Shown: positions 44,557 to 49,886 of the stretch, piece after piece
Position numbering within the stretch: the stretch's first letter is position 1
Layout of the letters: each line of letters opens with the position of its first letter
Origin: Microbacterium sp. nov. GSS16
GTDB lineage: Bacteria; Actinomycetota; Actinomycetes; Actinomycetales; Microbacteriaceae
Direction of reading: 5' to 3'
Assembly: GCF_028198145.1 (NCBI RefSeq)
Contig: NZ_CP116338.1
Coordinates: 930,001 to 994,000, forward strand
Length of the DNA stretch: 64,000 nt
Notes under the pieces: generated by a model
What the model was told of the DNA's origin: nothing
The model's database searches: none
What the model saw: only the letters and a program-made list of their open reading frames with translations
Program-made: the position numbers and the translations under genes

Positions 44557-45786
44557 TCATCCGCGGGCAGGCAGCATCAGCGAGAACGTCGTGGTCGACG
44601 CCCCGTCGAGCAGCAGGTGGCCACCGAGGCTCTCGGCGAGTTCGACCGAGAGGGCAAGGCCGATGCCCTCTCCCGCGGTGGCGCTGCGCCGATGCGGCCG
44701 CCGCTGGAAGATCGCGTTGCCGCGCGGACGCGTGCCCTCATCTGCGACCCGCACGGTGACGTACTCCGCTCGCCGCTCCGCGTCGATCGTGATGTCGCCG
44801 CGACCGTGCGTGAGGGCGTTGTGCAGCAGCACGTCGATGATCTGCGACGCGGCGGCAGGGGCGTCCCCCAGATCGCCTGTCATCGGCGCGACGTGGATCG
44901 TGCGTCCCAGGGAATGGGCCTGCCCCTGCCAGCGTGCTGCGGACTCGTGCAGCGACTCGGCGAGCGGCTCGAAGGTGGTCGCTCCTGGTGTGTCGCCCCG
45001 GGCGAGCGCGAGAAGCTGCGCGATGGCATCCGACAGGCGGTCAATCTCACGCACCGCGTGGTCGAGCTGATCGCGCACGACCGGCGGAGTCTCGGGCCAC
45101 AGCGACAGATCCTCGAGCTCGAGGCGCAGCGCGGTGATCGGGGTGCGCAGCTGATGCGAGGCGTTCGAGGCGAACTCGTGCTCGCGGCGCAGGCGATCCT
45201 CGAGCGTCTGCGCGCTTTCCCGCAGCGCCGTGTCGATCGCGCGTGCCTCAGGCACTCCGAGGTGCTGCTTCGGCGGCCGCAGATTGCCTCTGCCGATCTC
45301 GCGCACGGTGTCCAGCAGGCGGAGGAACGGTCGAGACAGCGAACGCGCCAGCTGTATCGCTGCAATGATCGCGATCAGCAGCAGGCCTGCGCCGATCGCG
45401 ATGACCGGTGTGACGGCTTTCGAGATGCGTTCGTTGACGATCTCGCCGGATCGGGTGAAGTCGACCGTGCCGCCGCTGCGGACGATCGAGGTGCCGGTGA
45501 TGTCATCCGCATCGACGTCGCTTCCGGCGACGACGGTGGTGCCGTCGGAAGCCGTGTACACCACTCGCTCGCCGTAGATGATCAGCCCGCCGAGCAGCTT
45601 CTCGTTCACAGTCCCGGAGCCGCCGCCTTGGTCGATCACGGTTCCCACCATGCTGGCCATCCGCTTCGCGTACTGCTGCTCGGAGGCGTGCACGAGATCG
45701 GCCACCATCAGCACACGCGGCACGCCGTACAACGCGATGATCGCGACGGCGAGGGAGAGGAAGGCGACGATGAGCCGTCTACGCAT
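44557..45786 (-). CDS. Sensor histidine kinase of the signal-peptidase island
   Basis: About 409 residues. The N-terminal membrane helix (LIVAFLSLAVAIIALYGV) and a second helix (VIAIGAGLLLIAIIAAIQLA, about 128-147) flank an extracellular sensor of roughly 100 residues. A HAMP-like segment leads to the dimerisation domain with the phospho-acceptor His211 in FASNASHQLRTPITAL. The ATPase N box is LLHNALTHG. ATG 45786 is preferred; it overlaps the response-regulator stop by 8 bp. It senses an external cue and phosphorylates the partner regulator. Confidence 0.92.
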   Translation of the reverse strand: MRRRLIVAFLSLAVAIIALYGVPRVLMVADLVHASEQQYAKRMASMVGTVIDQGGGSGTVNEKLLGGLIIYGERVVYTASDGTTVVAGSDVDADDITGTSIVRSGGTVDFTRSGEIVNERISKAVTPVIAIGAGLLLIAIIAAIQLARSLSRPFLRLLDTVREIGRGNLRPPKQHLGVPEARAIDTALRESAQTLEDRLRREHEFASNASHQLRTPITALRLELEDLSLWPETPPVVRDQLDHAVREIDRLSDAIAQLLALARGDTPGATTFEPLAESLHESAARWQGQAHSLGRTIHVAPMTGDLGDAPAAASQIIDVLLHNALTHGRGDITIDAERRAEYVTVRVADEGTRPRGNAIFQRRPHRRSATAGEGIGLALSVELAESLGGHLLLDGASTTTFSLMLPARG

Positions 45787-46549
45787 CGGGCGCGCCCTCG
45801 TCGAGGCGGAATCCGACCCCGCGCAAGGTGGTGATCCGCGCGTCGGCACCCGATTCCTCGAGCTTCTGGCGCAGTCGGGCGACGGTGACGTCGAGGGTCT
45901 TGGTGGACCCGAACCAGTTCGCGTCCCATACCTCGTCCATCAGTCGCTCGCGCGTCACCACGGCGCCGCGCTGCATGTCGAGTTGGGCCAGCAGGTCGAA
46001 CTCCTTCGTGCTCAGCGGCAGCTCGCGAGCCCCTGCGAGGGCGCGTCGCGAGGCGACGTCGACGACGAGTGCGGCTGGGGACACGGATGCCGAGGGCGTC
46101 CGCTCGCTGACGGGCTGCGACGCAGCCGCAGGACTGCGTCGCAGCAGAGCGCGCAGCCGGGCCAGCAGCTCGGCCAGAGCGAAGGGCTTGGCGATGTAGT
46201 CGTCCGCACCGACGTCGAGGCCGACGACGCGATCGAGCTCGCCGTCGCGCGCCGTGAGGATGACGATGCCGCCCGCGAAACCCTGCTCGCGCAGTCTGCG
46301 ACACACGTCGAGGCCGTCCATGTCGGGCAGGCCGAGGTCGAGCACGACCAGATCGATATCGTCGCCCGCTCGCGCAAGGGCCGACGCTCCGTCGGCGACG
46401 CGCTCGACGTCGTAGCCCTCGCGATCGAGAGTGCGCAGCAGCGGCACCGCAATGCCGTCGTCGTCTTCCACCACAAGGATGTGTCGTCCCACATGCTCGA
46501 GGCTATCAACGTCATCGAAGGGCCCTTCGGGGCGCTCGTACCGTGTCAT
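45779..46549 (-). CDS. OmpR-type response regulator
   Basis: A 256-residue regulator. The receiver domain has the acidic pair VVEDDD, the phosphorylated Asp71 in LDLGLPDMDG, and the conserved Lys in YIAKPF; the C-terminal winged helix includes LSTKEFDLLAQLDMQRGAVV and STKTLDVTVARLRQKL. The first 19 residues before the receiver look like an unusual extension. Its ATG overlaps the upstream repeat-protein stop (TGATG), tying it to the island. It likely binds the 11-bp direct repeats upstream of the two exported-protein genes. Confidence 0.92.
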   Translation of the reverse strand: MTRYERPEGPFDDVDSLEHVGRHILVVEDDDGIAVPLLRTLDREGYDVERVADGASALARAGDDIDLVVLDLGLPDMDGLDVCRRLREQGFAGGIVILTARDGELDRVVGLDVGADDYIAKPFALAELLARLRALLRRSPAAASQPVSERTPSASVSPAALVVDVASRRALAGARELPLSTKEFDLLAQLDMQRGAVVTRERLMDEVWDANWFGSTKTLDVTVARLRQKLEESGADARITTLRGVGFRLDEGAPDA

Positions 46550-48387
46550 CAGAAGTCCTTGTCGAGAGGGCCGCTCTCGGTGACCGGAGTCGTCGAGCAG
46601 CGCAGACCGACGAGGTCGGTCGCATTGGCGGAAGGCGTCCAGGTCATCGCAGCGGCCGTGGTGACCGTGCGCACCGAGCCCGACGTGGGGGCGCCGATGG
46701 TGACACGGACGACGGTGGCGGGCACGCCGTTGATGGTCTCGGTCGTGGCGATCATGGTGGCCGAGAACTGCGCCGTGCGCCACAAGCCGACGTGGTTGCC
46801 GCGCAGGTTGACGGAGCCGAGGTTGGTGTTCGGCACGTCGAGCAGGTCGTTGGACCCACTCGTGATGCCGCCGTCGCGCACCCGGGCGGTGACGGCGCGA
46901 GCCGAGCCGTCCCATCCGCTCGCGATGCTCTCCGGGCTGACGCGTCCGCTGTAGGTGAGCACCAGCACGTCGCCGGCGTCGATCACCCCGGCGTTGCCGC
47001 CGTTGACGGCCTGCACGTCGGCGCCGCGCAGCGGCGCATTGTCGACGCGTCGGGCAGCGAGCACGGTCGAGGTGGTCTGCTTGCCGTGGCTGTCGGTGAG
47101 GACGGCGCGCAGATCGTACGAGCCGTCCGCGACGGTCTTGGTGTCCCACGCGCAGACGTAGGGCGCCGCGGCGAGGGTGCACACGGGTGACCACTTGCCG
47201 CTGCCCGCCGGGGAGTACTGGATCGCGACCGACGAGACCCCGGCCGAGGAGTTCGCGGTGGCCGTCAGCTGCACGGCTCCGGTGAGGTACGCGCCCGAGT
47301 CGTCGAGCGAGATCGACGAGACCGTGTTGTCGACCAGGCGGCCGGCGACCGCGGCCGACGTGGTGCTGTTGCCGGCGAGGTCGGTCGCGATGGCACGGAA
47401 CGAGTATCGGCCATACGGCAGCGGCACGGTGTTGAAGCGGCACGACCACGGCTCGTCGGTGATGGTGCAGGCGGTCGTCCACGCGCCACCCGCACTCGGC
47501 TGGTGCTGGATGACGACGGATGCCACACCGGAGTGCGCATCGGCCGGCGAGGCGGCGAGGGTGACGGTGCCGGTGAGCACGCTGCCCGGGTCGGTCATGG
47601 TGACGGTGGGTGCGATGTTGTCGACGGTGACGGCGGCGGTCTCCGAGACCATGACCACGGCCGGACGGGCCGTGGGCCACGCCACGACGCGCACGTCGTA
47701 GTCGCCGCTGGCCAGTGACGCCGTCGCCCAGTTGACGGTGCAGGACGCGGAGCCTGCGATGCTCGCGCAGCCAGCGACGCTCTTCCAGCTGTTCGCGTCA
47801 GCGACCGAGTACTCGAATCGCAGACCATAGGTGGCGCGCGGGTCGGCATCGCCGAGCGTCGCGCTCAGCGGAATGGTGCCGCGCACCGCGTCGCCGAGGT
47901 CGGCGAGCGCCACGGTGAAGGCGTTCGCCACGGCGACCCGCACCGGCGCCGATGTGGAGGCGTAGCCCGCGTTGTCGGTGGCGGTGGCTCGCACGTCGTA
48001 TGCGCCGTCGACCACGGCGAAGGTGTCCCAGCTGCAGCGGTAGGGGGCAGATGCGGTGCTGCACAGCGTCGTCCAGCTCGAGGCGCCCGCGCTCTGCCAC
48101 TGGACCATGACGTTCGCGATGCCGGTCTCGGCGTCGGCGGCCGCGGCGGTGATGGCCGCGGATCCGCGCAGCGGTGCATCGGGGGCGACGATGCCGACCG
48201 TCGGCGGGGTCCAGTCGACGGCGGCGGAGGCCGTGCTCGTGGCGTTCGCGGACTGTGACATGAAGGCTGCGGAGGAGGTCTGCAGTCCGTTCAGGGCGAA
48301 GACGGCCGCAAGCAGGGCGCCCAGAGCGGCGAGTGCGCTGTTGCGCAGCGCCGTGCCGGTCATCGGGGTGCCCGTCCGTCTGGTCAT
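46549..48387 (-). CDS. Secreted repeat protein with Ig-like domains, SipW-type signal
   Basis: A 612-residue protein. The N-terminus has a signal of the alternate type (ALAALGALLAAVFALNGL followed by SSAAFMSQSAN). The mature part is built of about five Ig-like modules of roughly 90 residues, each with conserved WTTLCSTA..YRCSWDT-like and YDVRATATD segments and a pair of cysteines. No LPXTG motif is visible. The leaderless-type promoter favours M1 (48387) over M9 (48363). A candidate surface or matrix protein, co-regulated with the TasA-like gene. Confidence 0.85.
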   Translation of the reverse strand: MTRRTGTPMTGTALRNSALAALGALLAAVFALNGLQTSSAAFMSQSANATSTASAAVDWTPPTVGIVAPDAPLRGSAAITAAAADAETGIANVMVQWQSAGASSWTTLCSTASAPYRCSWDTFAVVDGAYDVRATATDNAGYASTSAPVRVAVANAFTVALADLGDAVRGTIPLSATLGDADPRATYGLRFEYSVADANSWKSVAGCASIAGSASCTVNWATASLASGDYDVRVVAWPTARPAVVMVSETAAVTVDNIAPTVTMTDPGSVLTGTVTLAASPADAHSGVASVVIQHQPSAGGAWTTACTITDEPWSCRFNTVPLPYGRYSFRAIATDLAGNSTTSAAVAGRLVDNTVSSISLDDSGAYLTGAVQLTATANSSAGVSSVAIQYSPAGSGKWSPVCTLAAAPYVCAWDTKTVADGSYDLRAVLTDSHGKQTTSTVLAARRVDNAPLRGADVQAVNGGNAGVIDAGDVLVLTYSGRVSPESIASGWDGSARAVTARVRDGGITSGSNDLLDVPNTNLGSVNLRGNHVGLWRTAQFSATMIATTETINGVPATVVRVTIGAPTSGSVRTVTTAAAMTWTPSANATDLVGLRCSTTPVTESGPLDKDF

Positions 48388-48393
48388 GCTTCG

Positions 48394-48427
48394 ACGTTAC
48401 GGAGCGGCCGGTTACAGCCCGGCAACA
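48394..48427 (-). promoter_or_regulatory. Activator-type promoter of the repeat-protein gene
   Basis: Two contiguous 11-bp units on the minus strand, TGTTGCCGGGC (48417-48427) and TGTAACCGGCC (48406-48416), lie 6 bp upstream of the -10 hexamer TAACGT (48394-48399). The -10 is 6 nt before the ATG at 48387. The repeats occupy the -35 region, as expected for an activator of the OmpR class. The same arrangement occurs at 49802-49846. Confidence 0.75.
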
Positions 48428-48485
48428 ACGGGGTCTCAGCCGGGACACGATCGGACCAGAAGAAGCGCTGCGCAGATACGGGGAC

Positions 48486-48512
48486 GGGGCCGCGGCAGGA
48501 AGCCGCGGCCCC
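48486..48512 (-). terminator. Strong hairpin between the signal peptidase and repeat-protein genes
   Basis: A perfect 11-bp GC stem (48486-48496 with 48502-48512) with a 5-nt loop, downstream of the signal peptidase stop on the minus strand. No T-run follows. It probably ends the tasA-like/peptidase transcript and separates it from the following promoter. Confidence 0.7.
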
Positions 48513-48537
48513 TTCGAGACCCGTGGAGAAGTGCGTG

Positions 48538-49068
48538 CTAGCCGCGTAGCGCGCGGACAAGGTCGCGCAGGAACATGAGACCGATCATCGCGGCGGGAAG
48601 GCCGATGGCCAGCATCCGCACCCCCGACATCGACAGCAGGATGAACACCCAGCCCACTGCCGGCACCCAGCCCTCGACGCGGGGCTGAACGGCGGATTCC
48701 AGGGTGAAGGTCCACGGGTCGGCACTGGCGTTCGCGTCGCCCTGGGTGCGCAGCACGCGCCGGCCGTCGGGGTCGGTCTCGTCGTCGATCGAGAGGATAC
48801 GGTGCGTGACCGGTTCGTTGATGCCGGCGTCCTTCGGCGGCACGTAGGTGATGATGTCGCCGACTTTCAGATCCGCGACGGGAACCTGCCGCTCGTACAC
48901 GACGGTGCCGCGCTCGAAGGCGCCGGACATCGAGCCGCCTGTGATGACGTAGCGGTCGAGGCCGAACAGCGACGGGACGAGCATGAGCCCCACCAGCGCT
49001 ATGGCGCAGGCGACGGCGACGCTGATCAGGGTGTTGCCGATCGCGCGGGTCGTCTTGATGGGGCTCAT
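48538..49068 (-). CDS. Signal peptidase I, SipW/ER type
   Basis: A 176-residue membrane peptidase. The nucleophile is Ser46 in TGGSMSGAF; the general base is His89 in PVTHRIL in place of the lysine of ordinary bacterial LepB, as in SipW and archaeal/eukaryotic signal peptidases. An N-terminal helix (ISVAVACAIALVGLMLV) and a C-terminal one (WVFILLSMSGVRMLAIGL) span the membrane. Encoded between the TasA-like and Ig-like exported proteins, which are its probable substrates. Confidence 0.92.
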   Translation of the reverse strand: MSPIKTTRAIGNTLISVAVACAIALVGLMLVPSLFGLDRYVITGGSMSGAFERGTVVYERQVPVADLKVGDIITYVPPKDAGINEPVTHRILSIDDETDPDGRRVLRTQGDANASADPWTFTLESAVQPRVEGWVPAVGWVFILLSMSGVRMLAIGLPAAMIGLMFLRDLVRALRG

Positions 49069-49081
49069 GCTCTTCTCCTCT

Positions 49082-49117
49082 GATCTCGGGTGATCAGTGC
49101 CGATCTCGGGTGATCAG
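49082..49117. repeat. Two 16-bp direct repeats upstream of the signal peptidase gene
   Basis: GATCTCGGGTGATCAG occurs at 49082-49097 and again at 49102-49117, spacing 20 bp, about 14 bp before the peptidase start. The arrangement could be a regulatory site or a local duplication. Confidence 0.75.
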
Positions 49118-49173
49118 CGGGGGTAGGACAGCCGGCGAATGGATGCCGGATGTCCCGGGTCAGGGGTGGGCGA

Positions 49174-49743
49174 TCACTGCGCGACGGACGTGGCGGCCGT
49201 CTGCTTCGAGTCCCAGGTGTAGACGGCGGAGGCGTTCTTGCCCTGCTCGGTGTTGTCGGCGGTCTGCGCGAGGGTGGTGCTGAACGTGTACTCGCGCGAC
49301 TCGCCCACGGCGAATTCGCCGAGGTCCAGAGCGCCGGCCTTGGTCAGCTCGCCGAAGGTGCCGGACCAGACCGGGGTGCCGCTGCCGGCGCGGGTGATGA
49401 CGAGCTTGAGGTTCTCGGCCTTGAGGAAGCCGTTGGTGGCGTTCTCGGTGAGGGTGAATGAGGCGGGCAGCGAGCCGGAGTTGGTGATGGTCACCTTGCC
49501 GTTGACCGTGTCGCCCGGCTTGAGGTTGGAGGCGTTGAAGATCGCCTTGCCCGACTTGGAGTTCTGCTGGGCGAGCGTGCCGCTGCTGAAGGCGTTGGCG
49601 GAGTTGACCGAGTTGGCGACGAAGTCCGCACCCGAGCCCACTGCCACGGTGGCGGCGACGAGCAGGCCGGCCAGCGGCAGGATGATCAGGCGCTTGCGGG
49701 ACTTCTTGGCGGTGGGGGCGGCGGTGGCGGTGATCTCGGTCAT
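49174..49743 (-). CDS. TasA-like exported protein with alternate (SipW-type) signal peptide
   Basis: A 189-residue protein. The signal region is long and polar at the front (ATAAPTAKKSRKRLIILPLAG), then the hydrophobic LLVAATVAVGSG, with cleavage near the ANSVNSANAFSSG region. The mature part is a beta-sandwich (KVTITNSGSLPASFTLTENATNG) matching the camelysin/TasA class. In Bacillus such proteins form biofilm fibres after SipW processing; the function here is by analogy. First gene of the peptidase island. Confidence 0.87.
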   Translation of the reverse strand: MTEITATAAPTAKKSRKRLIILPLAGLLVAATVAVGSGADFVANSVNSANAFSSGTLAQQNSKSGKAIFNASNLKPGDTVNGKVTITNSGSLPASFTLTENATNGFLKAENLKLVITRAGSGTPVWSGTFGELTKAGALDLGEFAVGESREYTFSTTLAQTADNTEQGKNASAVYTWDSKQTAATSVAQ

Positions 49744-49801
49744 GATGTTTCCGTTCTTGAGGGCCGAGGCGGCTCTGGACTGTGGGGAAGCTTGTGATTC
49801 G

Positions 49802-49846
49802 AAGCTACGGAGGCGCCGGTTACACGCGTGCCACAGAGCGGCAACA
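49802..49846 (-). promoter_or_regulatory. Activator-type promoter of the TasA-like gene
   Basis: Three contiguous 11-bp units on the minus strand, TGTTGCCGCTC (49836-49846), TGTGGCACGCG (49825-49835) and TGTAACCGGCG (49814-49824), lie 6 bp upstream of the -10 hexamer TAGCTT (49802-49807). Two of the units closely match the repeats at 48406-48427, and the spacing to the -10 is identical. The predicted 5' UTR is about 52 nt. Confidence 0.75.
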
Positions 49847-49886
49847 CCTCTGCCAGCGTTCGACCACAGAGTGCTTCGCGTCAGTG

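Follow-up and report, generated by a model that had tools for sequence, protein, structure and literature searches.

Two promoters of a Microbacterium TasA–SipW island share an 11-bp repeat ladder that is probably read by the island's own response regulator

What controls a TasA–SipW module in an actinobacterium, and is the control encoded alongside it? The question is raised by a 64,000-nt stretch of DNA (here called the window; positions 930001–994000 of the 2.9-Mb single-contig genome of Microbacterium sp. nov. GSS16) that carries two exported-protein genes with similar promoters and a nearby two-component system. An earlier note on this DNA proposed a self-contained circuit serving both exported proteins, and comparison across 20 complete islands supports that proposal. 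It is likely, in our assessment, that the OmpR/PhoB-type response regulator (RR) of the island activates both promoters and hence its own operon. Comparison establishes the repeat arrays, their register and conservation, their restriction within the genome, their co-occurrence with the island, and the overlaps between genes; from these we infer binding, phosphorylation, an activating sign, and fiber function. The genes of the island, and a hairpin that lies between two of them, are as follows.

49174–49743, minus strand: tasA-like gene (189 aa), encoding an exported fiber-type protein
48538–49068, minus strand: gene for a sipW-like signal peptidase (176 aa; TIGR02228, 58.4 bits against a cut-off of 51.85)
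48483–48515, minus strand: G+C-rich hairpin (inverted repeat; −30.2 kcal/mol) in the interval between sipW and the Ig promoter
46549–48387, minus strand: gene for an Ig-like repeat protein (612 aa from 48387, start probably 48363; Big_7, Big_13, and Big_3_3 over cut-off)
45779–46549, minus strand: gene for the OmpR/PhoB-type RR (256 aa; PF00072, 87.6 bits; PF00486, 80.7 bits)
44557–45786, minus strand: gene for a sensor histidine kinase (HK; 409 aa; PF00512, HisKA; PF02518, HATPase_c)

The tasA-like protein scored 29.8 bits against the TasA/camelysin family profile (PF12389; cut-off 22.5) and matched TasA chains across positions 48–94 (E 7e-5); with the TasA equivalog NF046066 it reached 27 bits, below the cut-off of 450. 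Foldseek with the TasA model at first returned unrelated top rows, and a second look ranked TasA first. The profile matched by the sipW-like protein, TIGR02228, describes SipW-type (archaeal-type) signal peptidase I; the Bacillus SipW equivalog NF046067 gave 38.3 bits, below its cut-off of 190. An OmpR/PhoB-type regulator is indeed encoded downstream, as had been claimed, with receiver and Trans_reg_C domains and an adjoining partner kinase. We also noted two identical 16-bp copies of GATCTCGGGTGATCAG in the gap between tasA and sipW (window positions 49082–49097 and 49102–49117).

Upstream of the tasA-like gene (PtasA) and of the Ig-repeat gene (PIg), the promoters are built as follows.

49814–49868, minus strand: PtasA array of five head-to-tail 11-bp units
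49868–49858, minus strand: PtasA unit TGTGGTCGAAC
49857–49847, minus strand: PtasA unit GCTGGCAGAGG
49846–49836, minus strand: PtasA unit TGTTGCCGCTC
49835–49825, minus strand: PtasA unit TGTGGCACGCG
49824–49814, minus strand: PtasA unit TGTAACCGGCG
49802–49807, minus strand: −10 hexamer TAGCTT of PtasA
48406–48449, minus strand: PIg array of four head-to-tail 11-bp units
48449–48439, minus strand: PIg unit CGTGTCCCGGC
48438–48428, minus strand: PIg unit TGAGACCCCGT
48427–48417, minus strand: PIg unit TGTTGCCGGGC
48416–48406, minus strand: PIg unit TGTAACCGGCC
48394–48399, minus strand: −10 hexamer TAACGT of PIg

Read along the minus strand in this order, the PtasA units run into CCTCCG and TAGCTT and the PIg units into GCTCCG and TAACGT, so the 6-bp distance from repeats to −10 given in the earlier note is exact at both sites. 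Its repeats are real, with their extent understated: five units stand in phase at tasA and four at Ig. Its statement that sequence, order, and spacing agree holds for the spacing to the −10 and fails for the order and number of units; the two units it named are not contiguous at tasA, where the order TGTTGCCGCTC, TGTGGCACGCG, TGTAACCGGCG sets their starts 22 bp apart, and the tasA site carries three mismatches to its 20-mer pattern. At up to three mismatches, that pattern occurs twice in the window against 0.05 expected (0 of 100 shuffles reach two), making a chance origin of the pair unlikely. Genome-wide, the pattern is unspecific, since it has seven matches at three mismatches and its reversed control has two. 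One of the seven (L002; 477494–477513 of the same genome, minus strand) has GTGAC/GTTAC repeats upstream of a gene named by eye as M23-peptidase-like, and is perhaps an MtrA site.

The Ig ATG at 48387 begins 7 nt past the −10. The gene start that had been given there is doubtful, translation being more likely from 48363 as judged by eye from the relatives' leaders; leaderless translation from 48387 was likewise set aside by eye, most relatives having no ATG at that place. The −10 box has the form TAnnnT, its T, A, and final T being the same in all 29 promoters from relatives. By contrast, no −35 box is recognizable at 15–19 bp spacing, the best match to TTGACA having at least three mismatches in 33 of 33 promoters. 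The linked RR might instead bind the arrays as a repressor, covering the promoter until it is dephosphorylated or displaced, and the array does abut the −10, a position open to a repressor as well. We regard this as unlikely: the absence of a −35 box bears against repression, as does the array layout, since OmpR/PhoB activators usually have tandem half-sites that stop a short way above the −10. Weak −35 boxes are common in actinobacteria, however, so a missing one is no proof of activation.

If the arrays are operators, relatives with the same genes should keep them. Searching 366 genomes of the genus and 150 of the family with the TasA protein gave matches in 61 of the 366, at E<1e-50 in 16 (window's genome included), and one close relative outside the genus, in another genus of the family (G074, among the 150); distant TasA-like matches made up the other 45 of the 61 matching genus genomes and 25 of the 27 matching family genomes. 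We fetched 10.0–13.0 kb around the 15 genus relatives and G074. The gene order tasA-sipW-Ig-RR-HK was kept in 15 of these 16; the sixteenth (L087, on the short contig C5 of G444) has only tasA and, close by, a C-terminal piece of HK, through deletion or assembly error. The loss of repeats from relatives with the same genes, named in the earlier note as refuting, was not seen: both arrays are present at 16 of 16 complete islands in this family (f1) and at four of four in a second family (f18), thus in the same register in all 20 complete islands, the window's included.

Conservation itself follows the ladder. In ungapped alignments anchored on the −10 (17 PtasA, 16 PIg), it is periodic at 11 bp upstream of the −10 and stops above the array. 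Block permutation reached the observed 11-bp power in one of 5000 trials for PtasA (−61 to −7) and in 0 of 5000 for PIg (−50 to −7); the longer PIg span (−61 to −7) gave a weaker signal (p 0.02), consistent with four units instead of five. Control stretches (−125 to −71) gave p 0.78 and 0.84 at 11 bp, with some power at 7.5 bp in the PIg control (p 0.049 for any period), and dropping near-identical rows (13 PtasA and 12 PIg left) changed the periodicity little. PtasA and PIg of the same genome are 0.52 identical in register, 0.44–0.45 at ±11, and 0.36–0.38 at ±22, over a background near 0.27; repeated half-sites would be expected to give such likeness at shifts of 11 and 22 bp. In 13 of 17 PtasA sequences, the window's not among them, there is an additional TGTTGC/TGTAAC-like half-site at about −80/−81 from the −10, 19–20 bp above unit 5 and out of the 11-bp phase.

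We then asked how far the arrays are confined to the island, using a promoter model (R1) trained on 29 promoters, none of them from the window or from its near twin L073. The genome-wide scan proposed in the earlier note recovered the window's two promoters at 49.7 (PtasA) and 44.9 bits (PIg), followed by a match at 17.2 bits; among the 150 of 2491 prefiltered candidates that were scored, we found no other strong member in the window's genome. Across the 366 genus genomes (14 candidates scored per genome, under stricter filters), all 36 matches at E<1e-6 fell in the 16 genomes with a tasA ortholog (E<1e-50). Training sites account for 27 of the 36, and the other nine are four from the window's genome and G179 and five extra sites. 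No match above 21.5 bits appeared in the 350 island-less genomes at 14 scored candidates each; weak rows occurred in G190, G191, G378, and G478 (E 7e-4 to 1e-3). In the 150 family genomes, R1 found both G074 promoters (31.2 and 26 bits, both training sites) and, outside these and the window's genome, nothing above 20.1 bits, with weak rows in 11 genomes besides G000 and G074. Because the searches were prefiltered, weaker members can be missed.

The second family shows how the arrays change with distance. In an order-level sample of 396 genomes, four f18 genomes have close TasA relatives (E 2.1e-54 or better), and all four carry the complete island, with a gene for a hydrophobic 120–129-aa protein between Ig and RR. 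With −10 anchors picked by hand, the eight f18 promoters have units at the same −17−11n register and resemble themselves at 11 and 22 bp; likeness between PtasA and PIg is 0.58 in register and 0.49 at 11. R1 detects four of the eight, weakly (17.5–22.6 bits), the half-site being GTnGCC in f1 and GTGGAA-like in f18; the G074 promoters look intermediate by eye. The recognition helix of RR is nearly invariant in the 16 f1 orthologs, where two positions vary: it reads TLDVT[VIM]ARLRQKL in 15 of the 16, TLDVTIGRLRQKL in G074, and TLDAT[IV]GRLRQKL in f18. In PhoB, these positions contact bases. Helix and half-site appear to have changed together between the families, a pattern that is only suggestive because just one or two evolutionary events underlie it. 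Four of six more distant order-level TasA-like cassettes were fetched (G844, G723, G832, and G079, with G545 and G681 left aside), and none of the four had the Ig-RR-HK set.

Of the five extra R1 sites (two in G162 and one each in G359, G371, and G453), four lie upstream of an 88–89-aa ORF and the fifth upstream of an EAL-domain gene; in G371, the small ORF starts ∼150 nt below the site, after an intervening 45-aa reading frame. The small ORF belongs to a family of 88–92-aa proteins (L129, L131, L132, L133, L137, L138, L140, L141, L173, and L174) with ten clear copies (E<1e-15) in eight genomes and weak matches in 49 further genomes; the two proteins scanned had no Pfam match over cut-off. An array is present at four of four "a" copies in island genomes, at neither of the two "b" paralogs there, and at none of the four copies in island-less genomes, and in the small-ORF tree the four array-bearing copies group, with weak support. 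The pattern agrees with the proposed circuit but is confounded by paralogy. The fifth site (L130; G162 C1:1440854–1440914, minus strand) is a PIg-type array just upstream of the EAL-domain gene (c-di-GMP phosphodiesterase type), a possible link between the island regulator and c-di-GMP.

Which regulator reads the arrays? Co-occurrence alone does not answer this, since array, RR, and tasA are found in the same genomes. RR orthologs (75%–100% identity) occur in nine of 198 sampled genus genomes, all nine of them island genomes; a protein of 53% identity in G398 was taken as a paralog, that genome having no tasA match, and no R1 match in the 17 kb fetched. The window's genome has 11 matches to the OmpR-type winged-helix family, among them its MtrA (L177; 381 bits against a cut-off of 300). 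MtrA has a genome-wide reach and is the most plausible candidate for a global actinobacterial regulator that would run the arrays, with the linked two-component genes as passengers or targets. Published MtrA sites are direct repeats of 11-bp period, RTAACAATttnRTAACAAT in C. glutamicum (PMC3353115) and KTRACC-N5-GTKAC in S. coelicolor (PMC5650626). Moreover, PIg unit 1 contains TGTAACC, and nine of 33 promoters, including the window's PIg, lie within two mismatches of the S. coelicolor consensus. Against this, no promoter of the 33 matches that consensus even with one mismatch, and none has the C. glutamicum core RTAAC-N6-RTAAC; we set MtrA aside as the reader since the two published consensuses fail in all 33. 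GTAAC is only one of nine unit consensuses in f1, and f18 units are mostly GTGGAA-like. The lack of R1 matches above 21.5 bits in the 350 island-less genomes, which presumably keep MtrA, also counts against it. The island thus shares with the MtrAB regulon an OmpR-type regulator and an 11-bp repeat period and differs from it in half-site and in regulator: the linked RR is 40% identical to the genome's MtrA (43% to L176) and scores 171.1 bits as MtrA, below the cut-off of 300. Control by MtrA is accordingly improbable, and the linked RR is our preferred reader. That PtasA and PIg are merely the two copies of a duplicated promoter, alike by ancestry and under no common regulator, would fit their likeness within the window (41 nt at 76%) but is highly implausible given that the register persists in 20 islands of two families despite drift of the intervening letters, and that another five arrays lie before unrelated genes in four island genomes.

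The gene arrangement suggests how the linked RR could come under its own control. In the window, the RR ATG overlaps the Ig stop by one base and HK overlaps RR by eight. With script-chosen start codons, the Ig–RR overlap is one base in 13 of 16 f1 islands, the two genes being 0 or 1 base apart in two others and 384 nt apart in G074, and the RR–HK overlap is eight bases in all 16. In G074, a further gene that begins on the Ig stop occupies the gap. Five islands (L088 and L198–L201) have a gene for a hydrophobic 120–130-aa protein, by eye a membrane protein, that starts on the Ig stop codon; in the five islands with an Ig–RR gap we saw by eye no separate array upstream of RR, where another gene sits. 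Since Ig, RR, and HK overlap, PIg should also drive the regulator and the kinase. The hairpin at 48483–48515, between sipW and PIg, is a possible terminator of the tasA-sipW transcript and suggests separate transcripts; we give it little weight because the strongest stem nearby seems, in several relatives, to fall within coding sequence.

We therefore propose the following model. The 11-bp ladders would be tandem half-sites for the RR of the same island. Once phosphorylated by its partner kinase, RR would assemble head to tail along the four to five half-sites of both promoters, take over the −35 region, and recruit RNA polymerase to the conserved TAnnnT. PtasA would yield a tasA-sipW transcript and PIg an Ig-RR-HK transcript; as PIg would thereby drive RR, the regulator would raise its own level, forming a self-contained positive-feedback switch for an exported TasA-like fiber module. 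Such a circuit would be wider than the earlier note supposed, adding sipW, downstream of tasA, and, through the overlapping genes, the regulator and kinase.

None of the parts is new in kind, but together they have the look of a conserved and self-contained circuit. PHO boxes are OmpR/PhoB-type operators, and like them the island's arrays are head-to-tail ∼11-bp direct repeats at a promoter. The same holds for the MtrA and PhoR sites of C. glutamicum (PMC3353115). The regulator, too, has the receiver and winged-helix domains of OmpR/PhoB-type systems, and the autoregulation predicted here is shared with them. Unlike other such operators, those of the island consist of four to five units that adjoin one another in strict register at each of the two target promoters, and they use their own half-site, GTnGCC (GTGGAA in f18), with strong sites confined to the island in the window's genome. 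In Bacillus, the tapA-sipW-tasA operon is controlled by the SinR and Spo0A pathways. The island adds an exported Ig-repeat protein and a private two-component system to what it shares with the B. subtilis operon (PMC9674648 and PMC10151520), namely, a TasA homolog with a dedicated SipW-type signal peptidase. Among the matches listed from the TasA/SipW literature, no title or abstract opening concerned how such a module is controlled in actinobacteria.

More tentatively, the five genes may form a portable fiber island with a private regulator–operator language, in which half-site and helix changed together between families while the 11-bp ladder stayed fixed. With its long ladders and positive feedback, it might act as an all-or-none (bistable) switch controlling surface fibers, one that in some hosts may have captured outside genes, including the c-di-GMP phosphodiesterase (EAL) gene. 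The comparison names a likely dedicated regulator, operator, and set of strong targets for an actinobacterial TasA–SipW module. This prediction is sharp and could be tested cheaply, and the drift of the half-site between the two families would lend itself naturally to studying how response regulators and their operators change in step.
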